Below, one piece after another: positions 2,942 to 30,972 of a stretch of DNA of 35,299 nucleotides (its first letter is position 1; each line of letters starts with the position of its first letter). A program made the translations under genes and the position numbers. The stretch comes from Gammaproteobacteria bacterium. GTDB taxonomy: Bacteria; Pseudomonadota; Gammaproteobacteria; GCA-2400775. The stretch lies in contig WGFU01000017.1 in the NCBI GenBank assembly GCA_015492075.1, positions 1 to 35,299 of the forward strand. The letters are read 5' to 3'. The notes beneath the pieces were generated by a model that was given only the letters and a program-made list of their open reading frames with translations, was not told the origin of the DNA and made no database searches.

Positions 2942-4840
2942 ATGCTTGAATTTATTCGCCAACGTGCAACAGGTGTTATCGCCTGGGTCATTGTTCTCGG
3001 CATTGTCGCGACGTTTGCTCTGTGGGGGCTTGGCGATTATTTGTCACCCGATGCAAATGTCTATGTCGCTGAAGTCGATGGTGAAAAAATCACCCAGAAT
3101 GAACTGCAGCGCCGTTATTTGCAAAATCGTGCACGCTTGCAAGCGACACTGGGCGATAATTTCAATCCTGCTTTTTTTGGTGAAGAGACGCTGAAAAGAC
3201 AAGCGCTGGATAGCCTGATTGAAGAGAAATTGTTGTTGATGCGATTGATCGATGCCGGTCAGCGTATCGGCGACCAGCAACTCAGAGTCACTATCCAATC
3301 ACTCGAGGCATTTAAAACCAACGGTGTGTTTGACCCCGTCAGTTACCAAAATCAAATTCGCGTTCAGGGTGAATCGGTGGAGGGTTTTGAAAATCGCCTG
3401 CGTCTTGCCATATTAACGGATCAAGCCGTTAACAGCGTGGTGCAAAGCAGTGTCGTGAGTGATACCGAGCTGGATGCTTTTATCAGATTGCGCGACCAAC
3501 AGCGAGAAATCAGTGTGCTGACAATCCCTCGCGATCGATTTGCTGCTACTGTTGAAATTAGTGATGCAGCCATTAAAAACTATTACGACGAAAACAGCAG
3601 TCGTTACCAAACAGCGGAACAGATATCCGTTGAATACCTTGTACTGGACGCCGATGACTTCACTACAGATATCGAGATTGATGAAGCAGATTTGCGCGCC
3701 GAATACGAAGCCAGAAAAAGCCAGTTCGTTGTAGAGGAGCAGCGTCGTGCCAGCCACATACTCTTGGAGTTGGACCCAGAGGCTGATGAAGCAGCCACCG
3801 CAGAAATTCGCGCTAAGGCGCAAGCCTTGCTTGATCGCGTTAACGCCGGTGAAGATTTTGCCGAGCTGGCAAAACAGTACTCAGACGATGCAGGTTCAGC
3901 AAACAGCGGCGGTGATCTGGGATTCTTTGGTCGCGGTGTCATGGTGCCAGCCTTCGAAGAGTCAGTATTCGCGCTCGCCGAAGGTGAAGTCAGCGGACTG
4001 GTTCAATCCGGTTTCGGTTTTCATATTATCAAGTTAACGGGCGTGCAGCCGGAGCGCGGTAAAACCTTCGATGAAGTGAAGCTGCAACTTGAAAATGAAT
4101 TAAAACGTGACAAAGCAACGGATCTGGTCATTGAGCGCTCAGAGCGCTTAACCGATGCCACTTATGAAAACCCCGAGACCCTGGCCGTGGCGGCCGAAGA
4201 GCTGGGCTTGGAAATTCAAACCAGCGAACTGTTTGAGCGCGGACATGGCACCGGCATTGCCAGTGATGAGCAAGTACGTAATGCCGCCTTCTCTGATGAA
4301 GTCCTTCGAGGGAACAACAGCGAGACCTTGCAGATCAGCGGCAACCGTATTGTCGTGCTGCGTTTAAAGGAACGTATTGAGCCGCAGACGAAACCGCTAG
4401 AAGAAGTGCGCGATCAAATCATGGCGACACTGAACCATCAGGCGGCGCGCGATGCGGCGCAAGCGCTCGGTGAAAGGCTGCTTGCTGATCTAAACGCTGG
4501 TCATGATATCAGTGAGCAATTGGCTGAAAACGAGCTGACATGGACCGAGGCCAAATTCTATCACCGTAATGACGGCCAGCTTGATCGCGTTATTTTGCAA
4601 GAATTGTTCAAGGCTACTAAAGCGAGTGAAAAAGCCAGAGGCATCGAGTTGGCTAACGGTGATTATGCACTGCTTAAAATAACTGCAATCAAAGACGGCG
4701 ACCCGGCCAGCCTCAGCGCCGAACAACGTCAGGTCTTAAAAGACCAACAACAACGCGCGCGTGGTAACAGTGAATATACTGCGTGGATTGAAATGCTAAA
4801 GAATTCGGCGGAAATATCTTTGTTTGAGAAAAATATTTAG
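2942..4840 (+). CDS. ppiD: Periplasmic chaperone / peptidyl-prolyl isomerase PpiD
   Basis: PpiD is an inner-membrane-anchored periplasmic chaperone that helps proteins leaving the Sec translocon. The 632 residues match the family length. Residues about 12-34 form the single N-terminal membrane anchor (GVIAWVIVLGIVATFALWG). A SurA_N-like helical region follows at about 40-200. A parvulin-type rotamase domain lies at about 265-365, with RRASHILLEL, the GGDLGFFGRG motif, FALAEGEVSG and SGFGFHIIKL. The remaining C-terminal half is the usual chaperone part. The start ATG opens directly on the conserved MLEFIRQRATG sequence. The gene lies downstream of hupB and the two tRNAs, the standard neighbourhood, and after a terminator, so it probably has its own promoter, which I could not identify. 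Confidence 0.95.
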   Translation: MLEFIRQRATGVIAWVIVLGIVATFALWGLGDYLSPDANVYVAEVDGEKITQNELQRRYLQNRARLQATLGDNFNPAFFGEETLKRQALDSLIEEKLLLMRLIDAGQRIGDQQLRVTIQSLEAFKTNGVFDPVSYQNQIRVQGESVEGFENRLRLAILTDQAVNSVVQSSVVSDTELDAFIRLRDQQREISVLTIPRDRFAATVEISDAAIKNYYDENSSRYQTAEQISVEYLVLDADDFTTDIEIDEADLRAEYEARKSQFVVEEQRRASHILLELDPEADEAATAEIRAKAQALLDRVNAGEDFAELAKQYSDDAGSANSGGDLGFFGRGVMVPAFEESVFALAEGEVSGLVQSGFGFHIIKLTGVQPERGKTFDEVKLQLENELKRDKATDLVIERSERLTDATYENPETLAVAAEELGLEIQTSELFERGHGTGIASDEQVRNAAFSDEVLRGNNSETLQISGNRIVVLRLKERIEPQTKPLEEVRDQIMATLNHQAARDAAQALGERLLADLNAGHDISEQLAENELTWTEAKFYHRNDGQLDRVILQELFKATKASEKARGIELANGDYALLKITAIKDGDPASLSAEQRQVLKDQQQRARGNSEYTAWIEMLKNSAEISLFEKNI

Positions 4841-17952: not shown

Positions 17953-18558
17953 TGCCGTGTCTGTACGGCTAGCGATAAGTTCTTCAGCTAACGTCAAATC
18001 ATCGGTTGAATTGATATTAAGAAAGCACGAGGTGCCTCTAGGAAACTCTGCATAGTTGCAGTTGCTTTCCTCTATCCAATCGATGACACTGCGCCGCCCG
18101 CTGTTGATATAGTCGGCAATGCCGGTTATATGTGCTTTTTCTATGAGTAATAACAGTGGTTCTATTTGGCTACCATGTTTAACAACGCTAATAGGGCGAC
18201 AGTTCGCTTCCATAGCCTTTTGCAGGCGCGGGAACAAATCGGTTGGCAGAAACGGGGTATCGCAAGGCATAATGAACAAATAGTCATGTTTCATATATTC
18301 AAGTGCAGAGTAGATGCCTGCTAGCGGACCTTGAAAACCAGAGATGGAATCGCCTATAACTCGTTGGCTATAGCGAAGATAGGATGCCCTATTTTTGTTA
18401 GCACTTATGATTGGCCTGTCAGGCGTACATGAGGTTCGTTCCAGTACATATTCAATCAAGGGTCGTTTGTTGAGTACGAGCAAACCTTTGTCGACACCGC
18501 CCAGGCGTTGTGCTTGGCCACCAGCAAGAATCAAACAGTCTGCGACGAGTTCGGTCAC
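17911..18558 (-). CDS. mobA: Molybdenum cofactor guanylyltransferase MobA
   Basis: MobA joins GMP from GTP to molybdopterin-Mo to give the (bis-)MGD cofactor used by DMSO-reductase family enzymes such as the NasA encoded nearby. The N-terminal nucleotide-binding signature LAGGQAQRLGGVDKGL is at residues 11-26. PLAGIYSAL and the metal-binding MPCDTPFL motif near residue 97 follow. The 215 residues are close to E. coli MobA. The start is a GTG at 18558 that overlaps the moeA stop by four bases (GTGA), indicating translational coupling. The 3' end overlaps the convergent methyltransferase-like gene by 42 bases, and its last about 20 residues (TDTASTNTKDLFLTPVL) look non-conserved. Confidence 0.93.
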   Translation of the reverse strand: MTELVADCLILAGGQAQRLGGVDKGLLVLNKRPLIEYVLERTSCTPDRPIISANKNRASYLRYSQRVIGDSISGFQGPLAGIYSALEYMKHDYLFIMPCDTPFLPTDLFPRLQKAMEANCRPISVVKHGSQIEPLLLLIEKAHITGIADYINSGRRSVIDWIEESNCNYAEFPRGTSCFLNINSTDDLTLAEELIASRTDTASTNTKDLFLTPVL

Positions 18559-19760
18559 GACGTCAGGCTAAACAGCGCAGAGTAGGGGATGAAGTCGACA
18601 GTGTCTCCCACACAAATATTGCGCTCTTTATCAATTCGCACTAAGCCATCGCTGTAATGCAATGAAGATTGAATGCCTGAGTCTTGCGAGCAATAAGGCC
18701 TGGCATGAAGTATGCCGTTCTCTTGCTTGAGACTGACGCGAAGATACTCACACCGTTTCTGAGTTCGCCACTCAAAGGCAGATTTAACAGGGTATTGATG
18801 AAAAGGTAAATGACTTACCCCTTGGCAACGCAGCAGAAACGGTCGTGCAATAATTAAAAATGTAATCATTGCCGAGACGGGATTACCTGGCAGCCCGATA
18901 AAGGGAGTGTCCTTGATTAAGCCAAAGGCTAGTGGTTTGCCAGGTTTTATCGCTATTTTCCATAGGTACATGGTGCCGATATTTTGCAGTGCCATTTTGA
19001 CGTGGTCCTCGTCACCGACCGAAACACCGCCTGTTGAAATGATGACATCAGCATCCTTGCTGTGGCGTTCCAACTCGGATTGAGTTTGCTCCAGAGTGTC
19101 GGCGACAATACTATGATGCGTCACGGCAAAGCCGAGCTGTGTGAACGCTGCAGTTAAGGCGTAGCAATTGGAATTGTAGCGTTTTCCTGTTTCAAGACCG
19201 CTACCAGGCTCAACCAGTTCATCTCCGGTGCTTAACAGGGCGATACGTAGTCGTCGGTATACCCGTACAGTATTGATACCGAGAGAGGCAATTATGCCAA
19301 TTTGTGCCGGGGTAATCGCGTCACCGCTTTGTAATATCAGTTCTCCCTTTGCTATATCTTCACCTGCATAGCGGACATGGCGCTTGGTAACGGGTCTTAT
19401 CTTAAAATGGACGCTATGCTCGTCGTAATCACAGTCTTCTTGTGGGACCACACAGTCTGCGCCCTTGGGTAAATTGGCACCGGTAAAAATGCGTGCTGCG
19501 GTACCGGGTTCTAGTTGCGTCGCCATATGCCCTGCTGTAATGCGCTGGCTGATTTTTACTGGTGAATGCGTTAAATCATCCATGCTATTGCAGGCAAAGC
19601 CATCCATCGCGCTATTGTCGCTATCCGGCACATTGATTGGTGCGATAATATCGCCAGCGCAGATACGACCGTTTGCCTCGCTCAGTGTGATCTCTTCGCT
19701 ATTGACTAGCAATCGTGCGTGACTGATTAGCGTTTGAATGGCGTCTTGCTCAGATAGCAT
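18555..19760 (-). CDS. moeA: Molybdopterin molybdenumtransferase MoeA
   Basis: MoeA inserts molybdenum into adenylylated molybdopterin. The 401 residues match the family (E. coli 411). Recognisable parts are the N-terminal NVPDSDNSAMDGFAC motif near residue 40, domain II with AARIFTGANLPKGADCVVPQE, and domain III (MoCF-binding, MogA-like) with LLSTGDELVEPGSGL and the STGGVSVGDEDHVK motif near residue 240. FIGLPGNPVSAMITF follows, with a C-terminal beta domain from about 325. It lies between moaB (17-base gap) and mobA (4-base overlap) in one minus-strand unit. That supplies cofactor for the nitrate reductase encoded about 7 kb away. Confidence 0.95.
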   Translation of the reverse strand: MLSEQDAIQTLISHARLLVNSEEITLSEANGRICAGDIIAPINVPDSDNSAMDGFACNSMDDLTHSPVKISQRITAGHMATQLEPGTAARIFTGANLPKGADCVVPQEDCDYDEHSVHFKIRPVTKRHVRYAGEDIAKGELILQSGDAITPAQIGIIASLGINTVRVYRRLRIALLSTGDELVEPGSGLETGKRYNSNCYALTAAFTQLGFAVTHHSIVADTLEQTQSELERHSKDADVIISTGGVSVGDEDHVKMALQNIGTMYLWKIAIKPGKPLAFGLIKDTPFIGLPGNPVSAMITFLIIARPFLLRCQGVSHLPFHQYPVKSAFEWRTQKRCEYLRVSLKQENGILHARPYCSQDSGIQSSLHYSDGLVRIDKERNICVGDTVDFIPYSALFSLTS

Positions 19761-19777
19761 AGTGATGTCTAGTCTAT

Positions 19778-20299
19778 TTATTTTTCTTTGAGCCGTGGCA
19801 TCAACTGCACTAAGTTACAAGGCTGCGTACGACTATCGAGCTGCTGGCTAATTATGTGCCGCCAGGCCGTGGTGCAAGCACCGGTTGATCCGGGCAAACA
19901 AAATATGATGGTACCATTGGCGACCCCAGCTAGTGCGCGCGATTGTAAAGACGATGTCCCTATCTCTTCTATTGATATGGCGCGAAACATTTCACCGAAA
20001 CCGTTAATCACTTTATCGACTAATGGAAGAATCGCCTCGGGTGTGCCATCGCGACCAGTCAAGCCGGTGCCGCCATTGGTGATAATGGCTTGTACGTTGT
20101 CGTTGGCTATCCACGATGACACGATAGAACGTATCTTATAGATGTTGTCGGCGACAATACGTTTCTCGATTAGTCGATGTCCAGCTTGCTCTAGCTGATC
20201 AGCCAGGTATTGACCTGAGGTGTCTGATATTTCATCTCTTGTATCTGAAATGGTCAGTACGGCGATATTGATTGATGTAGGTGCTTTGGTATCTTTCAC
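19778..20299 (-). CDS. moaB: Molybdenum cofactor biosynthesis protein MoaB (MogA/MoaB family)
   Basis: This is a MoCF-binding family protein that acts in molybdopterin adenylylation; in E. coli MogA does this and MoaB is a close relative. The 173 residues correspond to MoaB rather than the longer MogA. Motifs are AVLTISDTRDEISDTSG near residues 13-29, IITNGGTGLTGRDGTPEA near 73-90 (binding loop), and IFCLPGSTGACTTAW near 131-145. It is the first of moaB-moeA-mobA. A TATAAT-like -10 lies upstream at 20333-20338, so the three genes probably have their own promoter apart from the kinase gene 144 bases upstream. Confidence 0.9.
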   Translation of the reverse strand: MKDTKAPTSINIAVLTISDTRDEISDTSGQYLADQLEQAGHRLIEKRIVADNIYKIRSIVSSWIANDNVQAIITNGGTGLTGRDGTPEAILPLVDKVINGFGEMFRAISIEEIGTSSLQSRALAGVANGTIIFCLPGSTGACTTAWRHIISQQLDSRTQPCNLVQLMPRLKEK

Positions 20300-20332
20300 A
20301 ATGAGTATGTAGAGCCTGGTAAATAGCGTTTA

Positions 20333-20361
20333 ATTATAGCCCGTCGTTGTTAACAATGTTA
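20333..20361 (-). promoter_or_regulatory. Possible moaB promoter
   Basis: On the minus strand a perfect TATAAT lies at 20338-20333, with only a weak -35 about 17 bases upstream (TAACAT at 20361-20356). The 10-base palindrome TTGTTAACAA at 20347-20356 falls in the spacer and might bind a regulator. The 144-base gap between the kinase stop and moaB holds nothing else that I recognise. Confidence 0.35.
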
Positions 20362-20443
20362 TTGGTTTTCCATGTTAGTGTGTTGACGAGCAGCATAGAG
20401 GGCAATTATTTATCATCAATTAGCGTCGCTATCGCAAGTTGAT

Positions 20444-22159
20444 TTAGCTAAGTAATCTGTAGACGAGAAACCCGTTTATAGCCACCATGACAATGGCCAG
20501 GCCACGCCAAAAAGCCAGTGGGCTACGCTCCAATATTGGTGCTTTCGCCTCTTTGCTAAGCGCATGGTTGGGATGAGAGAGATCGTAAATAAATTCTGAT
20601 AATACCTCGTAGCGGCTTTGCGGATCAGGGTCGACGGCTTTTTGTAAGCAACGGTCCATCCACAACGGAATCATGGGGTTGTATTGATTGCTGGGATAGT
20701 ATTTCAAGTTTGAGGCCGACTTCAGGCTAGTAGTTTTATCCAGCGCGGTGCCGTAAGGAAATTTCCCGGTGAGCAATTCGTAGGCGATAGTGGCTAGAGA
20801 AAAGATGTCAGATCGGTTGCTGCCTGGTTGGCCTAACAGGTATTCTGGTGCCGTATAGTTTTTCGTGCCAAGCAGATTGAGGCGCTCAATAGGTGAGGAT
20901 ATTTCTGCAATACCGGCAATTTTTGTAGAGCCAAAATCGATAATGGTGATTTTGCCGTGAGCGTCGATCATAATATTTTCCGGTTTTAGGTCCTGGTGCA
21001 GCATCTGTAGTCGGTGGAAGGCGCGCAATCCGGTTGCGATTTGCTCAATGATGAGGCGTACGTCTTTAATGTCAGGCTGCGAATGTAGATCCATCCATTG
21101 GCGCAGGGTTTGGCCATCGATATACTCTGTCACATAATAGAGAAACTGTCGTGGCCGAGCTGGCCGGATGACTTTTAGCACGCGAGAGTTGTGGATGCGC
21201 TGGCCGACCCATTCCTCACGAATAAACCCCTCAATATAGGTAGGATCATCTTCATAGTTTACTGAGGGCGTCTTAATGACCACTGTTTTGGCACTGTCTG
21301 TATCAACGGCTTTATAGACTTGCGTACGCTTACTGGCATGAATTTCACGTTCGATGCGGTAACCATCCAATATCATACCGGGCTCGAGATCAGGGGGGAA
21401 CGGCAGTTTGGTTAGCGCTTCTACGGCCTCATTCGTGCTCTGTAAGGGCAGTGATTCGACTCGCAGCACCTGACAGGTAATGTTGTCGTGGCTGCCATTG
21501 GCCAAGGCGAATTGGGCTATTGTCTTGGCGCTGTCACTCAAATCTTGTGAGTCGGTAATAAGGTGGGCAATATGATGATCATCGATGAAATCATGTACAC
21601 CATCGGTAGTGAGTACAAAGATATCACCAATTTCGACACTGGTACTGTAGTAATCGATATCCAGATGAGTATCGACCCCCACCGCACGACTGAGATAGTG
21701 TTTATTGGCGACAAAGCGGCGGTGGTCACTGGTCAATTGTTCCAGGGTTTTACCCTGTAGGCGATAGACGCGGGAGTCACCGACATGAAATATATGGGCG
21801 GTGGTTGATTTAACTATCAGTGCGCTTAATGTCGTTATGAGTCCGCGCCCGGATTCCTCACTTTGCTGGCCTCGATGATAGAGCCAGCTGTTTATAGCCA
21901 TAAGAATTTTATGCGCAGAAGTTTTTGTTGTCCAGGAATCGGGCGTGGAATAGTAATCGGAAAGAAAACTTGTGATGCAGGATTCAGCTGCTTCGCGGCC
22001 GCTGATGCAACTGCTAACGCCATCAGCGATGGCGACAGCAATACCTTTGTTGGTTAACTGTGGCTCCTTTGGGTTGACTGCGCCACAACAATCTTGATTT
22101 TCTTCCTTGACACCTTGCTCTGAATGTTGGCTGATACTGATACCGAGTTTTGCCGTCAT
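20444..22159 (-). CDS. Bifunctional PP2C-type phosphatase / Ser-Thr protein kinase, tail-anchored
   Basis: One 571-residue chain carries two opposing activities. Residues about 5-240 are a PP2C-like phosphatase: AIADGVSSCISGREAA, VGDSRVYRL, LTTDGVHDFID and GSHDNIT hold the expected metal-binding Asp residues. Residues about 265-530 are a Hanks-type kinase: VVIK (Lys), LHQDLKPENIMID (catalytic loop, HQD instead of HRD), IDFGSTK (DFG) and TAPEYLLG (APE). Its glycine-rich loop is degenerate. A single helix (FWRGLAIVMVAINGFLVYRLL) ends the protein and would anchor it to the inner membrane facing the cytoplasm. I chose the ATG at 22159 because AGGAACG precedes it; a longer form from 22207 is less likely. 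The gene lies 83 bases after narK on the same strand. A similar kinase neighbours the nitrate assimilation genes of Pseudomonas, from memory. The target is unknown. Confidence 0.9.
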   Translation of the reverse strand: MTAKLGISISQHSEQGVKEENQDCCGAVNPKEPQLTNKGIAVAIADGVSSCISGREAAESCITSFLSDYYSTPDSWTTKTSAHKILMAINSWLYHRGQQSEESGRGLITTLSALIVKSTTAHIFHVGDSRVYRLQGKTLEQLTSDHRRFVANKHYLSRAVGVDTHLDIDYYSTSVEIGDIFVLTTDGVHDFIDDHHIAHLITDSQDLSDSAKTIAQFALANGSHDNITCQVLRVESLPLQSTNEAVEALTKLPFPPDLEPGMILDGYRIEREIHASKRTQVYKAVDTDSAKTVVIKTPSVNYEDDPTYIEGFIREEWVGQRIHNSRVLKVIRPARPRQFLYYVTEYIDGQTLRQWMDLHSQPDIKDVRLIIEQIATGLRAFHRLQMLHQDLKPENIMIDAHGKITIIDFGSTKIAGIAEISSPIERLNLLGTKNYTAPEYLLGQPGSNRSDIFSLATIAYELLTGKFPYGTALDKTTSLKSASNLKYYPSNQYNPMIPLWMDRCLQKAVDPDPQSRYEVLSEFIYDLSHPNHALSKEAKAPILERSPLAFWRGLAIVMVAINGFLVYRLLS

Positions 22160-22242
22160 AGACGTTCCTGTTTTTTCTTTACATGGGAAATTGCCTGTCA
22201 GTAACAATCTTAGTCAAGCAACATCGCTAGTTAGGTGGTGAC

Positions 22243-23715
22243 TTATTTCACTTCTATCATCTGTACCGTACCATCGGGCAGGGTTTCAGCCATTTGGCCT
22301 TTTGGTTCTTCCAGAAAAAATAAAATCAGGGCGAACAGGGCTGTTGCGATAATACCAATAAAAAGAAAGAATAGGTCGTAAGAAACAAGAGAATTGACAG
22401 TTAAAAAGGTGACTGCGCCGACATTACCAAAGGCACCTGCCATGCCTGCAATCTGCCCTGTCATGCGCCGTTGCACCAATGGCACCATAGCGTAGACTGC
22501 ACCGGATCCCGCTTTAGAAAAAATACCCCCGACGATTGTAATTGCAACGACCAGCCATATCGACCAGCTTTTATCAACTAGGCCCAGAATTAGAAAGCTG
22601 GTAGCTATGCCGGCGAAGACGATAATTAGCGTGCGGCGACGGCCAATGATATCGCTTAGCCAACCACCGCCAGGTCGTGCCACAAGATTAACAAAAGGAT
22701 AAGCACCAGCCAAAAGTGCGGCAGTGACTTTTGGGATATCAAACCAGGAGACATAGAATAGCGCTAGCATGGAGACTACGGCTAACTCGGTACCAAAGGT
22801 GACAAAGTAGGCCCAGTTGAGGATGGCCACTTGCTTGAACTTATAGCGATGTAGCTGCGGTACCGGCGTTTTCAGTATATGTGCGTTGACATGCCAGATT
22901 TTTACTAACTGAGAGAGATAGATGATGGTCAAAGCGCCATAAATCATATAGCTGGCGCTAACGGTAATTAGTCCTAATTGTGTGGGTGAGAGTTTCCAGG
23001 TCAGTAATGCCAGCGCTAGAAATAAGGGGATATTCATTAGCATATAAAGTATCAGATCAGAACCGCTAGTCACTTCCATTGAGCCCATTTTTTTGGATTT
23101 GAAATAGGTCGAACCTTTCGGTGTATCGCTGACCACGAAGTAGTAGATAACACCGTATAGAATGGCGACGATACTGGCAGCGGTCAGGGCAATACGCCAG
23201 CCTTCATCAGCGCCAAAGTTAGCGGCGATGAAAGGTAAAGTCATCGCCGCCCCGGCGGAACCCAGATTGCCCCAGCCACCATATATACCTTGCGCCAGAC
23301 CAGTTTGCCTGGCCGGAAACCACTCGCCTATCATACGAATACCGACAACGAAACCGGCACCGATGAAACCGGAGAGAAAACGCATAAGCGCAAGCTTTTC
23401 ATAGCTGTCAACCCAAGCAAAACCGATGCTAATGGCGCCGCCGAGCACCAGAATAGCGCTATACATGATGCGTGGCCCGAGTTTGTCTACTAGCATACCG
23501 ACGACAATACGCGCAGGGATGGTCATAGCAACATTGAGAATAAGCAAGACCTTTGCTTGCTGGTCGGTGAGAGAGAGCGCTTCTTGTATAAAGGGCATCA
23601 TCGGTCCCAAACCCAGCCAGACTACAAATGTCATGAAAAATGCGAACCAGGTATAGTGCAAAATTCTTATATTCGGCTTGGAGAGGTCAAAGATATTGAG
23701 CCTGTTACCCAACAT
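22243..23715 (-). CDS. narK: Nitrate/nitrite transporter, NarK/NasA MFS family
   Basis: This is an inner-membrane major facilitator protein that imports nitrate, or exchanges it for nitrite. The 490 residues have about 12 membrane helices. The two family nitrate signatures are visible: GIYGGWGNLGSAGAAM near residue 140 and GMAGAFGNVGAVTF near 420. The conserved Arg in helix 2 (IPARIVVGMLVDKLGPR) and an MFS A-like loop are present. ATG at 23715 has AAGGA eight bases upstream. It is divergent from nirB-nirD-nasA across a 471-base control region, and a sigma-54 promoter-like sequence lies just upstream, so it is most likely the assimilatory importer (often called nasA in Pseudomonas), not a respiratory one. 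Confidence 0.93.
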   Translation of the reverse strand: MLGNRLNIFDLSKPNIRILHYTWFAFFMTFVVWLGLGPMMPFIQEALSLTDQQAKVLLILNVAMTIPARIVVGMLVDKLGPRIMYSAILVLGGAISIGFAWVDSYEKLALMRFLSGFIGAGFVVGIRMIGEWFPARQTGLAQGIYGGWGNLGSAGAAMTLPFIAANFGADEGWRIALTAASIVAILYGVIYYFVVSDTPKGSTYFKSKKMGSMEVTSGSDLILYMLMNIPLFLALALLTWKLSPTQLGLITVSASYMIYGALTIIYLSQLVKIWHVNAHILKTPVPQLHRYKFKQVAILNWAYFVTFGTELAVVSMLALFYVSWFDIPKVTAALLAGAYPFVNLVARPGGGWLSDIIGRRRTLIIVFAGIATSFLILGLVDKSWSIWLVVAITIVGGIFSKAGSGAVYAMVPLVQRRMTGQIAGMAGAFGNVGAVTFLTVNSLVSYDLFFLFIGIIATALFALILFFLEEPKGQMAETLPDGTVQMIEVK

Positions 23716-23758
23716 TGGCGCGTCCTTTTCTTTGTTGAAAGTAGATTTTTCTTCTATG

Positions 23759-23773
23759 GCAATTATCGAGCCA
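23759..23773 (-). promoter_or_regulatory. narK: Sigma-54-like promoter of narK
   Basis: Read on the minus strand, TGGCTC (23773-23768), five bases, then TTGC (23762-23759) match TGGCAC-N5-TTGC at 9 of 10 listed positions, with GG and GC at the required spacing. Transcription would start near 23747, 32 bases upstream of the ATG. Confidence 0.6.
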
Positions 23774-23828
23774 TAGCTCTATATTATTGAAAATAAAGGA
23801 GATATTTTATTTTTGCTTTGATGCGCAA

Positions 23829-23848
23829 CTGTATTTGATCAAATACAG
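23829..23848. repeat. Perfect 20-base palindrome in the nitrate control region
   Basis: CTGTATTTGA is followed immediately by its reverse complement TCAAATACAG, with no spacer. It lies about 90 bases upstream of the predicted narK transcription start. The centre TTGATCAA does not fit the FNR/NnrR pattern TTGAT-N4-ATCAA, nor the NtrC pattern. It is probably a binding site for an unidentified dimeric regulator. Confidence 0.6.
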
Positions 23849-24007
23849 TGCAGCTTGTGGCGAAGACGAGACAATAATGAGGCACTTTTTGGAGTTATTG
23901 ATGCATCGGTAGCGTGCATCAGAGAGGCAAGGAGTAAGGTTTATCAGTGTTTCGCGATTGTTCACAGGCGCATATTTTTTTCGCCTCATAGCGAGGCGGG
24001 ATGAATA

Positions 24008-24034
24008 GGGCGCGCACCGGTTTGGTGCGCGCCC
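24008..24034. promoter_or_regulatory. NtrC-like enhancer palindrome
   Basis: Arms GGGCGCGCACC (24008-24018) and GGTGCGCGCCC (24024-24034) are perfect reverse complements with a five-base centre. The core GCACC-N5-GGTGC equals the half-sites and spacing of known NtrC sites upstream of glnA. It lies about 120 bases upstream of the predicted nirB start and about 270 from that of narK, suitable for an activator of sigma-54 polymerase. It lacks a following T run, so it is a poor terminator candidate. Confidence 0.55.
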
Positions 24035-24114
24035 GTATTGAGTGGTGCTAAAGACAAGGTGCTTTATCTATATATCGTTATATATAACAATGACTTATAT
24101 GGTTTATTTGTCTC

Positions 24115-24129
24115 TGGAACAATTCTTGC
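24115..24129 (+). promoter_or_regulatory. nirB: Sigma-54-like promoter of nirB-nirD-nasA
   Basis: TGGAAC (24115-24120), five bases, then TTGC (24126-24129) match TGGCAC-N5-TTGC at 9 of 10 positions, with the invariant GG and GC 12 bases apart. Transcription would start near 24141, leaving a 46-base leader before the nirB ATG. The leader contains GTGT and ACAC arms around a loop but no clear terminator. Confidence 0.6.
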
Positions 24130-24186
24130 TCAATGTGTATGAGAGGCGCAAGTCGCGGTGTGCATCGCTAATACACGGAGAGATTT

Positions 24187-26616
24187 ATGAAAGAAAAATT
24201 GGTCATGGTCGGCAATGGCATGGCGGGTGTGCGTGCCATTGAAGAGCTGTTAAAGGTCGCGCCGGAGCAGTACGACATTACTATATTCGGCAGTGAGCCT
24301 TATGCCAATTATAACCGTATTTTATTGTCACCTGTTTTAACAGGTGAAATGGCACTGGAAGACATCATGCTCAATGATGTTGACTGGTATAAAGACAATG
24401 GTATAGATCTGCACCTCAATAAAAAGGTTGTCGATATTGATCGCCGTGGTCGTGAAGTGATTGACGAAGACGGCCAGCGTATACCATACGATCGCTTGCT
24501 CATTGCTACCGGCTCCAATCCGTTCATCATTCCTGTGCCGGGCCATGAGCTAGAAGGTGTGATTGCCTACCGAGATATAGCCGATGTTAACTACATGCTT
24601 GACAGTGCAAAAAAATATAAAAATGCTGTTGTTATTGGTGGTGGCCTGTTAGGTCTTGAGGCGGCCAATGGCCTGAAAGAACGCGGTATGCAAGTCACGA
24701 TTGTGCACTTGCTCGATACACTTATGGAGCGCCAGCTGGATAAGGCATCAGGTGCCTTACTGCAACGTTCACTGCAAGACCGCGGACTGAACTTTTTAAT
24801 GGGCGTGCAAACCGAGTCAATTATTGGTGACGAGCGCGTTGAAGGTGTGCGTTTTGCGGATGGCAGTGAAATTGAGGCAGATATTGTTGTCATGGCTGTC
24901 GGCATTCGACCCAACATCGAGTTGGCGCAGAAAGTTGGTATACACTGCGAACGCGGCATTATTGTTAACGACACCATGCAAACCTATGATCCGCGTATTT
25001 ATGCCGTGGGCGAGTGTTTGCAGCATCGTGGTGCGACTTATGGCTTGGTGGCACCGTTGTTTGAACAAGCCAAGGTGTGTGCCAACCACTTGGCCCAGCT
25101 TGGTCATGCGCGTTATGAAGGTTCGACAACGTCTACCAAGCTTAAAGTCACTGGTATTGATCTTTTTTCTGCGGGTGATTTTACCGGTGATGAAAGTACT
25201 GAAGATATTGTCTTTCAAGACCCAACCGCAGGCGTTTATAAAAAAGTCGTTTTGAAAGAAAACAAAATACTTGGCGCCGTGCTCTACGGTGATACCGTTG
25301 ACGGTGCCTGGTACTTTGACCTGATGCGTAACGGCACTGATGTCAGTGATTTTAGGGAAAGCCTGTTGTTTGGCCAGGCCCATATTGGCGATGCCGGTCA
25401 TGGTGAGACCAATGCCGCTGCTGCTTTGCCTGACAGCGCCGAGATTTGCGGTTGTAACGGTGTTGTTAAAGGCGACATTGTTAATGCGATCCGCGAAAAG
25501 GGTTTGTTTACGCTGGATGACGTACGCGCCCACACCAAGGCGTCCAGTTCCTGTGGCTCCTGTACCGGTCTGGTCGAGCAAATACTGGCGTCAGTGGTGG
25601 GTGACTACTCTGAAACGCCGAAGAAAAAAGCCATGTGTCAATGCACCGACTTTACTCATGATGAAGTGCGAAAAGCGATTGTTGAAAATGAATTGAAAAC
25701 CATCCCTGATGTGATGGCGAAAATGGCATGGAAGACAGCCAATGGTTGCGCCTCGTGCCGCCCGGCGTTGAATTATTATTTGATTTGTGCCTGGCCCGGT
25801 GAGTGGGATGATTATCAGTCTCGCTTTATCAATGAGCGCGCGCATGCCAATATCCAAAAGGACGGTACTTACTCGGTGGTGCCGCGGATATGGGGTGGGG
25901 TCACCAATCCCGCCGAATTACGCGCCATTGCCGACGTTGCTGATAAATATAATATTCCCACAGTCAAGATCACCGGTGGTCAACGTATCGATCTGTTAGG
26001 AGTAAAGAAAGAAGACCTACCCAAGGTGTGGGGTGATTTGAGCCGCGCTGGTTTTGTTTCCGGCCATGCCTATGCTAAAGGCCTGCGTACAGTGAAGACT
26101 TGTGTCGGTAAGGAGTGGTGTCGCTTTGGTACGCAGGACTCGACCACTATGGGCATCGACCTTGAAAAAATGACCTGGGGTGCCTGGGCACCACATAAGA
26201 TCAAATTGGCTGTGTCGGGTTGTCCACGTAACTGTGCCGAAGCGACGATTAAAGACTTCGGTGTGGTCGCGGTGGATTCTGGTTGGGAGCTGCATGTCGG
26301 TGGCAATGGTGGAATAAAAGTACGTGCGACCGATTTTCTGTGCAAGGTGGTGACAGAAGCGGAAGTGCTGGAATACTGTGCTGCTTTTCTTCAGCTCTAC
26401 CGTGAAGAAGCGCATTATCTTGAACGTACCGCACCGTGGATCGAGCGCGTGGGTTTAAGCCGTGTAAAAGAGCTTGTCGTTGACGATGAAGCTGGCCGCA
26501 AAGCGCTAGCACAGCGCTTTTTAGCGTCGCAAAGGCACATGCAAGATGATCCATGGAAGCAGCGTGCCGAAGGTGCTTGCAAAAATGAATTTGAGCCGCT
26601 TACTGCGATAGCATAG
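24187..26616 (+). CDS. nirB: Assimilatory nitrite reductase [NAD(P)H], large subunit NirB
   Basis: NirB takes electrons from NAD(P)H to reduce nitrite to ammonium at a siroheme in the cytoplasm. In the 809 residues I see, in order: an FAD-binding motif GNGMAGVRAIEEL at residues 8-20; an NAD-binding motif VVIGGGLLGLEAANGL near 150; and two BFD-like [2Fe-2S] modules. The first is CGCNG near 421 with SCGSC near 455; the second is CQC near 485 with CASC near 521. A ferredoxin-like half domain and the siroheme/[4Fe-4S] domain follow, with TCVGKEWC near 637 and the SGCPRNC motif near 677 giving the four cysteine ligands. All are intact. ATG at 24187 follows GGAGAG. It is the first gene of nirB-nirD-nasA, with nirD starting 8 bases after it. 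Confidence 0.96.
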   Translation: MKEKLVMVGNGMAGVRAIEELLKVAPEQYDITIFGSEPYANYNRILLSPVLTGEMALEDIMLNDVDWYKDNGIDLHLNKKVVDIDRRGREVIDEDGQRIPYDRLLIATGSNPFIIPVPGHELEGVIAYRDIADVNYMLDSAKKYKNAVVIGGGLLGLEAANGLKERGMQVTIVHLLDTLMERQLDKASGALLQRSLQDRGLNFLMGVQTESIIGDERVEGVRFADGSEIEADIVVMAVGIRPNIELAQKVGIHCERGIIVNDTMQTYDPRIYAVGECLQHRGATYGLVAPLFEQAKVCANHLAQLGHARYEGSTTSTKLKVTGIDLFSAGDFTGDESTEDIVFQDPTAGVYKKVVLKENKILGAVLYGDTVDGAWYFDLMRNGTDVSDFRESLLFGQAHIGDAGHGETNAAAALPDSAEICGCNGVVKGDIVNAIREKGLFTLDDVRAHTKASSSCGSCTGLVEQILASVVGDYSETPKKKAMCQCTDFTHDEVRKAIVENELKTIPDVMAKMAWKTANGCASCRPALNYYLICAWPGEWDDYQSRFINERAHANIQKDGTYSVVPRIWGGVTNPAELRAIADVADKYNIPTVKITGGQRIDLLGVKKEDLPKVWGDLSRAGFVSGHAYAKGLRTVKTCVGKEWCRFGTQDSTTMGIDLEKMTWGAWAPHKIKLAVSGCPRNCAEATIKDFGVVAVDSGWELHVGGNGGIKVRATDFLCKVVTEAEVLEYCAAFLQLYREEAHYLERTAPWIERVGLSRVKELVVDDEAGRKALAQRFLASQRHMQDDPWKQRAEGACKNEFEPLTAIA

Positions 26617-26624
26617 GTAAAAAA

Positions 26625-26978
26625 ATGTCCTTATTAGAAATTGGAAAATTAGAAGATATCCCTAAATTGGGTTCGCGCGTGGTGCGCACTGCCCAGGGTG
26701 ACATCGCAGTGTTTCGTAACAGTGATGACGAAGTGTTTGCTTTGCTCGATATTTGCCCGCATAAAGCCGGCCCTTTATCACAAGGTATTGTTTGTGAGCA
26801 TACAGTAACCTGCCCACTGCATAACTGGAATATTGATATGCGCAGTGGTGCGGCTTGCGCGCCTGATGAAGGTAAAACAACGGCATATGAAGTGACTTCA
26901 AAGGCAGGCGTATTATTTCTGAAGCTGCCGGATGGTGCCGAGAAAGTAAGTAAGCCGACTCAAACCGTAGGTAGCTAA
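26625..26978 (+). CDS. nirD: Nitrite reductase small subunit NirD (Rieske-type)
   Basis: NirD is the small partner of NirB, needed for nitrite reduction. The 117 residues form a Rieske-like beta domain. The [2Fe-2S] ligand motifs are present: CPHKAGPLSQG (C-x-H) near residue 46 and CPLHNW (C-x-x-H) near residue 65. Many NirD proteins of enteric bacteria have lost these ligands, so this one is of the cluster-binding kind. It starts 8 bases after nirB and ends 8 bases before nasA, in one operon. Confidence 0.93.
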   Translation: MSLLEIGKLEDIPKLGSRVVRTAQGDIAVFRNSDDEVFALLDICPHKAGPLSQGIVCEHTVTCPLHNWNIDMRSGAACAPDEGKTTAYEVTSKAGVLFLKLPDGAEKVSKPTQTVGS

Positions 26979-26986
26979 GCACTACC

Positions 26987-29662
26987 ATGACGCTGGCGCA
27001 AGACTTCGAACGTGAGGTGCGTACTACCTGTCCCTATTGCGGCGTCGGCTGTGGTGTCATCGTTTCGCAAACCGCGGATGGCGTAGCGAGTGTAAAAGGC
27101 GATACAGAACACCCGGCGAACTATGGACGGCTTTGCTCCAAAGGTTCCGCGCTTGCCGATACGGTTGATCTGGATGGTCGTCTGCTGGCGCCAAAAATCG
27201 CCGGGGAGACGGTCAGTTGGGATCTGGCGCTAGATACCGTTGCTAATAAATTCAGGTCCGTCATCGAACAGTACGGCCCCGATGCCGTGGCCTTTTATGT
27301 TTCAGGGCAGCTATTGACCGAAGATTATTACGTTGCCAATAAACTAATGAAAGGCTTTATTGGTAGTGCCAATATCGATACCAATTCACGTTTATGTATG
27401 GCCTCATCGGTGGCGGGGCATCGCCGTGCTTTTGGGATGGATACCGTGCCCGGTTGTTATGAAGACCTCGAGCTGGCAGATTTGATTGTATTGATCGGGT
27501 CGAATACCGCCTGGTGTCACCCGGTGCTCTATCAACGCATCGTAAAGGCAAAAGAAGCACGGCCGGACTTACAAATTATCGTCATTGATCCGCGCAAAAC
27601 GCCGACCTGCGGTATCGCAGATCTGCATCTGCCTGTACGTATCGGTAGTGACGTGATGTTGTTCAATGGTTTGTTGAATTTTTTGCGTCGCGAAGATTAT
27701 CTCAACTTCGAATATCTTGAAAATCACACGGAAGGGTTTAGTGCGGCGATGAATGCTGCGCGTGAGTCGGCCCCTTCAATTACAGCGGTAGCTCAGGCTT
27801 GTGATCTTGATGCTGCTGATGTTGCTAGCTTTTATCAGATGTTTGCTACAACTAGCAAAGTGGTGAGTCTCTATTCACAAGGTGTTAACCAGTCATCTAG
27901 TGGCACGGACAAGGTCAACAGTATTATCAACTGCCATTTGGCGACAGGCCGTATCGGTCATCCCGGCATGGGGCCCTTATCCATTACCGGTCAGCCCAAC
28001 GCTATGGGCGGGCGCGAAGTGGGTGGTTTGGCCAATCAGCTGGCGGCGCATATGAATCTGGAAGACGAGGCGCATCGCGATACCGTCACGCGATTTTGGC
28101 AGATAAATTCAGTGCCTGACCAGCCAGGCCTTAAAGCTGTTGATCTATTTGATGCCATTGACGATGGTAAGGTAAAAGCCGTCTGGATTATGGCAACCAA
28201 CCCTGTCGTCAGTATGCCTGATGCCAACAGGGTAAAACGTGCACTCGGTAAATGTGAGTTAGTGGTGGTATCAGACTGTATTGAGAATACAGACACTACT
28301 GCTTGTGCCGACATATTGCTACCCGCGGCAGGTTGGGCGGAAAAAGATGGAACGGTGACCAATTCAGAGCGGCGTATTACTCGCCAGAGAAAATTTATGC
28401 CCGCTGCGGGTGAGGCCAGGGCCGATTGGTGGATCATCACCGAAGTCGCCAAACGCATGGGTTATGCAACGCATTTCGCTTATCACAGTGCCGCTGACAT
28501 CTTTCGTGAGCATGCCGCTTTATCGGGTTTTGAAAATAATAATGACCGTGACTTCGATATCAGTGCGCTGTCAAATATTGACGATGATGATTACCACAAC
28601 ATGGCGCCCATACAATGGCCAGTAAACGTCGCTTCACCCAGCGGCCAAGCACGTCTATTTGCCAACGGTGATTTCTACACGCCCAGCCGTCGCGCACGTT
28701 TCGTCGCCGTAATGGCAACTGCGCCGACCAACCTGGCCAACGCAGAATATCCTTTAATATTGAATACAGGTCGCCTGCGCGATCAGTGGCATACCATGAC
28801 ACGTACGGGTAAATCAGTACGCTTGTTTAGTCATCAGTCAGAGCCTTTTTGCGAGATCAACCCAGATGATGCTGAGGACTACGCCGTAGCCGATGGTGGC
28901 ATTGTCAGGGTGAAAAGTCAGTGGGGTGAGATGCTGGCGCGGGTAGTGGTTACTGAAAGTCAACCGCGTGGCTCTGTATTTGTGCCCATTCATTGGAACG
29001 AGCAGTTTGCCAGCAATGCCAGAGTCGGTGTCCTGGTCAATCCCGCTGTCGACCCGATTTCAGGTCAGCCAGAATTAAAACATACACCGGTAGCCGTGTC
29101 TCCGTACACTGCACTTTGGCATGGTTTTATCTTAAGCAGAAAAGAAATACACCAGGCAGGGAATCTGGACTACCTGGTGCGCATTCCGGAAAAACATTGC
29201 TACCGCTATGAGCTATGCGGTAACGACATCATCGCCGATTGGCATGCCTGTTCTAGGGCGATGTTACAAGAGAACGAAGCAGCCGACTGGCTTGATTATT
29301 CTGACCAGGCACATGGATGGTATCGCAGCGCATGTGTCAAAAACGGGCGCCTACAGTCTTGTTTGTATATTGCACCAATGAAATCATTGCCTGCGCGAGA
29401 CTGGTTAATTGAATTATTTGCCAAAGCCCAGCTTGATGATAGCGAACGTATGTCACTGCTTGCCGGTAAGCCTGGCACACCACGTAAAGATGTCGGCCGC
29501 ACGGTTTGCGCCTGTCTTGATGTCGGTGAAAAAACCATTATAGAGGCGATTACCGAAGACGGTATCGATAGCATAAAAGGTCTCGGTGAAAAATTGAAAG
29601 CAGGTACAAATTGCGGTTCTTGTATTCCGGAACTTGGTGCTCTAATTAATAAATATTCGTGA
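26987..29662 (+). CDS. nasA: Assimilatory nitrate reductase catalytic subunit NasA
   Basis: NasA reduces nitrate to nitrite in the cytoplasm with a bis-MGD molybdenum cofactor. The 891 residues have an N-terminal [4Fe-4S] motif with Cys15, Cys18, Cys22 and Cys50 (TCPYCGVGC and LCSKG), the molybdopterin oxidoreductase domain (SRLCMASSVAGHRRAFG near residue 135), and the dinucleotide-binding C-terminal beta domain (LILNTGRLRDQWHTMTRTGK near 590). There is also an extra BFD-like [2Fe-2S] module at the end (VCACLDVGE near 840, NCGSC near 875), as in Klebsiella NasA. The absence of a Tat signal fits the assimilatory enzyme. It is third in the operon after nirB and nirD. An insertion sequence begins 21 bases after its stop, so the native operon end is disrupted. 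Confidence 0.95.
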   Translation: MTLAQDFEREVRTTCPYCGVGCGVIVSQTADGVASVKGDTEHPANYGRLCSKGSALADTVDLDGRLLAPKIAGETVSWDLALDTVANKFRSVIEQYGPDAVAFYVSGQLLTEDYYVANKLMKGFIGSANIDTNSRLCMASSVAGHRRAFGMDTVPGCYEDLELADLIVLIGSNTAWCHPVLYQRIVKAKEARPDLQIIVIDPRKTPTCGIADLHLPVRIGSDVMLFNGLLNFLRREDYLNFEYLENHTEGFSAAMNAARESAPSITAVAQACDLDAADVASFYQMFATTSKVVSLYSQGVNQSSSGTDKVNSIINCHLATGRIGHPGMGPLSITGQPNAMGGREVGGLANQLAAHMNLEDEAHRDTVTRFWQINSVPDQPGLKAVDLFDAIDDGKVKAVWIMATNPVVSMPDANRVKRALGKCELVVVSDCIENTDTTACADILLPAAGWAEKDGTVTNSERRITRQRKFMPAAGEARADWWIITEVAKRMGYATHFAYHSAADIFREHAALSGFENNNDRDFDISALSNIDDDDYHNMAPIQWPVNVASPSGQARLFANGDFYTPSRRARFVAVMATAPTNLANAEYPLILNTGRLRDQWHTMTRTGKSVRLFSHQSEPFCEINPDDAEDYAVADGGIVRVKSQWGEMLARVVVTESQPRGSVFVPIHWNEQFASNARVGVLVNPAVDPISGQPELKHTPVAVSPYTALWHGFILSRKEIHQAGNLDYLVRIPEKHCYRYELCGNDIIADWHACSRAMLQENEAADWLDYSDQAHGWYRSACVKNGRLQSCLYIAPMKSLPARDWLIELFAKAQLDDSERMSLLAGKPGTPRKDVGRTVCACLDVGEKTIIEAITEDGIDSIKGLGEKLKAGTNCGSCIPELGALINKYS

Positions 29663-29943: not shown

Positions 29944-30972
29944 TTAAGCAGGACGTGCCGGACAATACGTTTCGTCTCTTGCCAACACAACCCAGGCAGT
30001 TCGAGCCATTTTATTGGCCAATGCGACGGCCGCCTCATTCACGTGACAGCGCTGTAGCAATTGCTCCACCCAGGCATTACCGCCTGGCCTGCCGGCCTTC
30101 ATACGGCGCCGAATATGATGGATCACCGCTCTGGCGCCATGGACCAGCAAACAGCGCAGATAACCATCACCCCGCTTGCTGATGCCCAATAACCGGTCCT
30201 TGCCACCCGAAGCGGGGCACTAGCCCAAGATAAGCGGCCAGTTGTCGGCCATTACGGAAGTCCTGGCCTTCACCCACCGTGGCCGCCAGGGCAGTCGCAG
30301 TCAATACGCCAATGCCCGGGATACTGGCCAGTCGCTGACTGACCGCGCTACTGGCATGCCAAGCTTTTAACTGCTGCTCACATCGGGCAATCCGCTCCAT
30401 CAACTGATCATGCTCGGCCTTGAGTTCCGCCAGCAGATGCCGAGCCAGCATCGGCAGTTCATTATCTGCATCTTCCAGGAGTTCCGGAAAAGATCGCGAG
30501 ATGACCTTGACCCCTTGTGGCACGACGATGCCATACTCTGAGAGGATTCCACGAATGTGGTTACTCAGCGCAACACGTTGGCGTACCAATAACTGGCGTC
30601 CATGATGCAGGTGCAAGACGCACTGTTGCTCTGGCATCTTTGGCTGGACAAACCGCATGCTCGGCCGCTGTACCGCCTCACAAATGGCTTCTGCATCGTT
30701 ACGGTCGTTCGTGTTTGACTTTAGATACGGTTTGACAAAGACCGATGCCATCATGCGGACGGTATGCCCCAACCGGGTCAATTCCCGCGACCAGTAGTGC
30801 GCACCGCCGCAGGCTTCCATACCAATCAAACACGGTTCCAGCTTGGTAAATATCTACACATTTCAGATCGCCTGAGTTGTTTATGCACCACCACCTCGCC
30901 CTCTGCATCAGTCCCGTGTACTTGAAACACATTCTTTGCCAAATCTAATCCAACCACGCTAAGCTTGTTCAT
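29944..30972 (-). pseudogene. IS110/IS1111 transposase, broken by two frameshifts
   Basis: Three pieces in different frames together give about 349 residues, the normal length. Piece 1 (30972 to 30826) starts MNKLSVVGLDLAKNVFQVHG, with the first catalytic Asp, and runs into TGA. The correct frame resumes as IFTKLEPCLIGMEACGG, placing the first shift near 30865. Piece 2 (to about 30210) holds the catalytic Glu (GMEACGG), the NDRNDAEAI Asp residues, the coiled-coil, and the helix-hairpin SIPGIGVLTATALAATVGEG typical of Transposase_20. A second shift near 30200-30215 follows GLVPR. Piece 3 (30200 to 29944) resumes as GGKDRLLGISKRGDGYLR and ends PARPA. It is probably inactive. Programmed frameshifting is unlikely at two places without slippery sites. 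Confidence 0.88.

Follow-up and report, generated by a model that had tools for sequence, protein, structure and literature searches.

Divergent sigma-54-type promoters and a candidate NtrC enhancer between nitrate import and reduction genes of an uncultured gammaproteobacterial-type genus

Genes and control elements of the locus

The window (the whole stretch of DNA analyzed, 35,299 nucleotides) belongs to an assembly of 1.65 Mb with an estimated completeness of 80%. Within it, an intergenic gap at positions 23716-24186 separates narK on the reverse strand from nirB, nirD, and a nitrate reductase gene on the forward strand (Table 1). The narK match to TIGR00886 falls slightly below the cut-off of 311.7 bits, and the nitrate reductase matched both NF047855 (E 1.2e-140) and TIGR01591 (E 2.3e-157) below their respective cut-offs. 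Directly downstream of narK, and ahead of moaB and moeA, lies a gene for a fusion of a PP2C phosphatase with a Ser/Thr kinase (20444-22207); narK, the kinase fusion, moaB, and moeA possibly form one transcript. Past the nitrate reductase gene there is a transposase-like open reading frame on the reverse strand (30167-30829), which appears IS110-like by eye and is possibly interrupted.

Table 1. Coordinates of the genes and predicted control elements at the narK-nirB locus
Feature	Position	Strand	Basis or remarks
PP2C phosphatase-Ser/Thr kinase fusion, moaB, moeA	18555..22207	-	downstream of narK
narK, NarK-family nitrate/nitrite MFS transporter, 490 aa	22243..23715	-	TIGR00886 E 3.7e-88, 296 bits; MFS_1
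Sigma-54-type promoter of narK (predicted), TGGCTCGATAATTGC	23773-23759	-	identical in G004 and G001
Perfect palindrome, 11-bp arms, GGGCGCGCACC-GGTTT-GGTGCGCGCCC	24008-24034		NtrC-type core GCACCGGTTTGGTGC at 24014-24028
GGTGCT direct repeats, half-site-like	24044-24049 and 24058-24063	+	
IHF-like site (tentative), TAACAATGACTTA	24085..24097	+	between palindrome and nirB promoter; one mismatch to WATCAAN4TTR
Sigma-54-type promoter of nirB (predicted), TGGAACAATTCTTGC	24115..24129	+	GG/GC element in all three congeners carrying the locus
nirB, NADH-nitrite reductase large subunit	24187..26616	+	TIGR02374, 991 bits, cut-off 578
nirD, nitrite reductase small subunit	26625..26978	+	TIGR02378, above cut-off
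Nitrate reductase, assimilatory type (NasC-like)	26987..29662	+	C-terminal Fer2_BFD domain

The initial annotation of this DNA had described outward-facing TGG-N2-C-N5-TTGC elements with exact GG/GC spacing in front of narK and nirB, and both elements were located where it had placed them; each matches 9 of the 10 letters of TGGCAC-N5-TTGC, with ten bases from GG to GC. Derived from the −12 elements, the predicted transcript starts would fall near 24141 for nirB and near 23747 for narK, which would give leaders of approximately 46 nt and 31 nt, respectively. A structured nirB leader was considered and rejected, as 191 of 200 shuffles fold at least as well as the predicted leader.

Also present is the perfect palindrome on a GCACC-N5-GGTGC core that had been noted between the two promoters. 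It is the sole full NtrC-type dyad in the gap, with its core 86 bp upstream of the nirB sigma-54 element and 240 bp from the narK element. Two GGTGCT direct repeats had been pointed out nearby; both exist, but they are half-sites only and the second is not conserved in the congeners, while the first reads GGTGC in G004 and G002 and GGCGC in G001. A tentative IHF site, one mismatch from the IHF consensus, has a one-mismatch counterpart at the corresponding position of G004 and G002, whereas G001 shows none. A further perfect palindrome, ACTGTATTTGATCAAATACAGT (23828-23849), lies on the upstream side of the narK promoter; G004 and G001 share its core TTGATCAA, and G002 does not.

Chance expectation for the elements

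Across the assembly the pattern TGG-N2-C-N5-TTGC matched 92 times, against 59 for its reversed control, so that a lone match is weak evidence and the case rests on position and conservation. In 5000 dinucleotide shuffles of 23716-24186, the promoter pattern within 120 nt of the gene start arose on the nirB side in 13 and on the narK side in 6, the palindrome core GCACY-N5-RGTGC arose in 5, and neither both promoters together nor all three elements arose in any.

The GC-rich 11-bp stem of the palindrome could fold in RNA, as would be expected of a hairpin or terminator accompanied by promoters of the sigma-70 type. This reading is scarcely credible, since a terminator scan of the gap recovered no terminator-like site and an Rfam scan of 23500-24400 returned nothing above the gathering score (two sub-threshold matches were chance-like). 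Sigma-70 boxes, which the initial annotation had named, at transcript starts elsewhere, as refuting evidence, were no commoner in the gap than chance, with one weak sigma-70-like site approximately 400 bp from nirB against a chance level of 1.2 per shuffle.

Conservation within the genus

Three congeners carry the locus, with NirB identities of 92% (G004), 88% (G001), and 88% (G002); the fourth, G003, is 52% complete and gave only a weak partial match. The G002 region was read from loci L013 and L211; L083 and L130 apparently derive from one species (G001), and L013 and L131 from another (G002). The nirB element reads TGGAACAATTTTTGC in G004, TGGAATGGTTCTTGC in G001, and TGGAATAATTCTTGC in G002, and the narK element is unchanged in G004 and G001 and weakened in G002 (CGGCCTAATAATTGC), where CGG stands in place of TGG at −24. 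The spacer and flanks of the palindrome diverge among the congeners around a retained NtrC-type core, kept in G001 and G004 and present in G002 as GCACC-N5-AGTGC. The distance from the core to the nirB element is similarly stable (86 bp here, 86 in G004, 87 in G001, and 84 in G002), and that to the narK element is 245 bp in G004 and 242 bp in G001, the G002 narK element being below threshold. The conservation in relatives that had been proposed as a check was thus observed in all three congeners carrying the locus, with a weakened narK element in G002, and also more widely.

We also collected every GCACY-N5-RGTGC palindrome in the five genus genomes (G000 to G004). Genome wide, the excess of this core is only mild (40 palindromes versus 28 for the reversed pattern), with 26 within open reading frames and 14 intergenic. 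Ten of the 14 intergenic palindromes precede nirB/narK (4), ntrB (4), glnA (1), or the gene of a TorF-family porin (1), and the remaining four lie ahead of other genes and lack a promoter match. NCBIfam naming identified one NtrB, the GlnA, and the porin; the remaining three ntrB genes were named by likeness. The glnA dyad (in G001) is followed by an 8/10 sigma-54 match 66 bp on, and a dyad stands before ntrB in all four congeners (L202 in G003, L207 in G001, L209 in G002, and L225 in G004).

At the porin locus (L221; G000:C32:30400-35400), the dyad lies at 3001 and a 9/10 sigma-54 match, TGGCACATTAGCTGC, lies 106 bp on; on this sequence pattern, the porin gene is likely a further NtrC target. 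Among the ntrB dyads, an 8/10 sigma-54 match occurs near those of L207 and L209 only, and in L209 it falls within a called open reading frame; for this reason the role of the ntrB dyad may be autorepression and not activation.

Survey across the class

The survey drew on the 80 top-ranked relatives out of 586 or more; six loci with less than 400 bp upstream were dropped, which left 74. Among these 74 of the top 80, a perfect core palindrome was found within 500 bp in 29, a promoter match within 200 bp in 47, and both in 26, counts that are not independent because close relatives are included (e.g., L085, L087, and L089); in 1480 shuffles the corresponding rates were 0.27%, 6.0%, and 0. A narK homolog is divergently oriented in 33 of the 74. 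These 33 loci, drawn from the same top 80 of 586 or more, had the nirB promoter in 32, the narK promoter in 28, both promoters in 27, the palindrome in 23, and all three elements in 21, compared with 3.6% for the nirB promoter, 3.7% for the narK promoter, 0.18% for the palindrome, and 0 for all three in 1650 shuffles. The other 12 of the 33 in this top-ranked set of 80 are each missing one or more elements; L057, L067, L069, and L071, for example, keep the nirB match with neither a perfect palindrome nor a narK match. In the 41 loci in which no divergent narK was seen (same top-ranked 80), the promoter was recovered in 15, the palindrome in 6, and both in 4, with some of the contigs ending before the narK position.

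Spacing was also recurrent: of the 22 loci (top 80 of 586 or more relatives, window excluded) that have both a palindrome and a nirB element, 11 place them 84 to 87 bp apart. Helical phasing of this distance is only suggestive: for 15 groups of relatives, grouped by judgement, a period of 10 to 11 bp gave a resultant of 0.75, a value that 6 of 20000 jittered sets attained, and with only the 10 distinct distances the observed value was reached by 1087 of 20000.

Perfect palindromes occur in pairs at five loci (L019, L023, L025, L027, and L045), one member close to nirB and the other 125 to 139 bp from the start of narK; most other palindrome-bearing loci among the top 80 of 586 or more relatives have a single one. 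These five relatives bear on a reading in which the palindrome serves nirB only and the narK sigma-54 promoter relies on a separate nearby NtrC site or half-site that is weaker and degenerate, such as AGTGC at 23847-23851; an RGTGC half-site approximately 130 bp from the narK start, found here and in G001, G002, and G004, points in the same direction. We nevertheless consider this arrangement unlikely, given that the partner half of the half-site is off consensus, that enhancer distances of approximately 240 bp are workable, and that many relatives likewise pair two promoters with just one full site.

Regulators encoded in the genome

Absence of rpoN or ntrC from the genome had been named in advance as refuting the reading. 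The assembly contains rpoN (PF04552, E 2.9e-71), but no ntrC above the cut-off was found in the source assembly (80% complete). Neither was glnA found in this 80% complete assembly, a gene that nearly all such bacteria carry and that was recovered in all 14 control genomes. In addition, ntrC scored above the curated cut-off in all four congeners, and in G002 and G004 glnA is on the ntrB-ntrC contig, approximately 2.3 kb upstream of ntrB. With glnA likewise missing and ntrC present in every congener, the missing ntrC is not decisive; the proximity of glnA to ntrB-ntrC in G002 and G004 points to one lost stretch, and an assembly gap is the simplest account.

The assembly does encode four strong sigma-54 activators, none of them NtrC above the cut-off, and one of these (NtrX-like, PilR-like, PEP-CTERM, or PAS-type activators, for instance) might in principle act at the locus. 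That an activator other than NtrC is responsible is very improbable, however, as the same core precedes classical NtrC targets, standing before ntrB in each of the four congeners and before glnA in a single one, and as all four congeners have ntrC and the missing glnA suggests that one stretch was lost from the assembly.

A search for ANTAR domains (NasT/NasR type) recovered no match in any of the five genus genomes (G000 to G004), two of which are at 95% completeness. When applied to nine other members of the class, the same search gave matches in 6 of the 9 genomes, so that NasT-type, nitrate-specific antitermination looks absent from the genus.

Proposed mechanism

Taken together, the elements, their positions and conservation, rpoN, and the ntrC of the congeners suggest that the gap is probably a divergent sigma-54 control region from which NtrC coactivates nitrate import and reduction under nitrogen limitation, using one shared enhancer. 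Control of nirB alone by NtrC and sigma-54 is the firmer part and very likely. Under nitrogen limitation, phosphorylated NtrC would bind the palindrome at 24008-24034 and contact sigma-54 RNA polymerase waiting at nirB, the palindrome center being approximately 120 bp upstream of the predicted start. It would reach the narK promoter through a longer loop, approximately 274 bp from the predicted start, and ATP hydrolysis by NtrC would then open both promoters. With both opened by NtrC, expression of narK for import would increase together with that of nirBD and the nitrate reductase gene for reduction.

Occupancy of the dyad by NtrC and use of both promoters are inferred, as is, with less certainty, the sharing of a single enhancer by the two. 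The initial annotation had predicted that import and reduction are switched on together from one enhancer; the coactivation by NtrC and sigma-54 is supported, while the shared enhancer is the least secure part, because the only full dyad is separated from the narK element by 240 bp and a second one occurs near narK in five relatives. The single full site itself counts against the reading, many NtrC enhancers being tandem, and the second full palindrome near narK in the five relatives means that sharing is not the sole arrangement. Also weighing against it are the absence of ntrC from the 80% complete assembly, the weakened narK element of G002, the 12 of 33 divergent loci with an element missing, the merely mild genome-wide excess of core palindromes, and the four intergenic ones ahead of other genes. 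A more far-reaching proposal, which we regard as doubtful, is that the genus switches nitrate assimilation by nitrogen status alone, with one NtrC dyad for two promoters, only a half-site left of the narK-side dyad that relatives have, and no NasT-type layer for sensing nitrate.

Comparison with known systems

The nas operons of Azotobacter and Klebsiella combine a nitrogen-status layer of NtrC and sigma-54 with antitermination by NasT or NasR. The locus described here resembles them in its predicted NtrC and sigma-54 layer but differs in that G000 to G004 gave no ANTAR match and the nirB leader has no notable fold.

Comparative reconstruction of the NtrC regulon in Proteobacteria predicted glnA, ntrB, and ntrC as targets and, in alpha- and betaproteobacteria, also placed assimilatory nitrate and nitrite reductases and narK in the regulon (PMC5343134). 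The nitrate genes in the portions of that reconstruction considered here are alpha- and betaproteobacterial, whereas the loci we surveyed are mostly titled Gammaproteobacteria. For Pseudomonas stutzeri A1501, NtrC-dependent genes for nitrite reductase and a nitrate transporter, with putative NtrC sites, have been reported (PMC8443478); expression was measured there and is predicted here, and a divergent layout is not described in the parts of that report considered. A survey of sigma-54 found NAD(P)H-nitrite reductase to be enriched in Pseudomonadota, according to the portion considered (PMC12316311). In literature searched by title and opening of the abstract, we found no description of the divergent narK-nirB layout itself, and our survey shows that this layout, with two sigma-54-type promoters and an NtrC-type dyad, is widespread. 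That NtrC governs nitrate assimilation is well established, and the locus is an ordinary, well-supported case that leaves the understanding of NtrC unchanged while offering, for an uncultured gammaproteobacterial-type genus, a prediction about regulation that can be tested.
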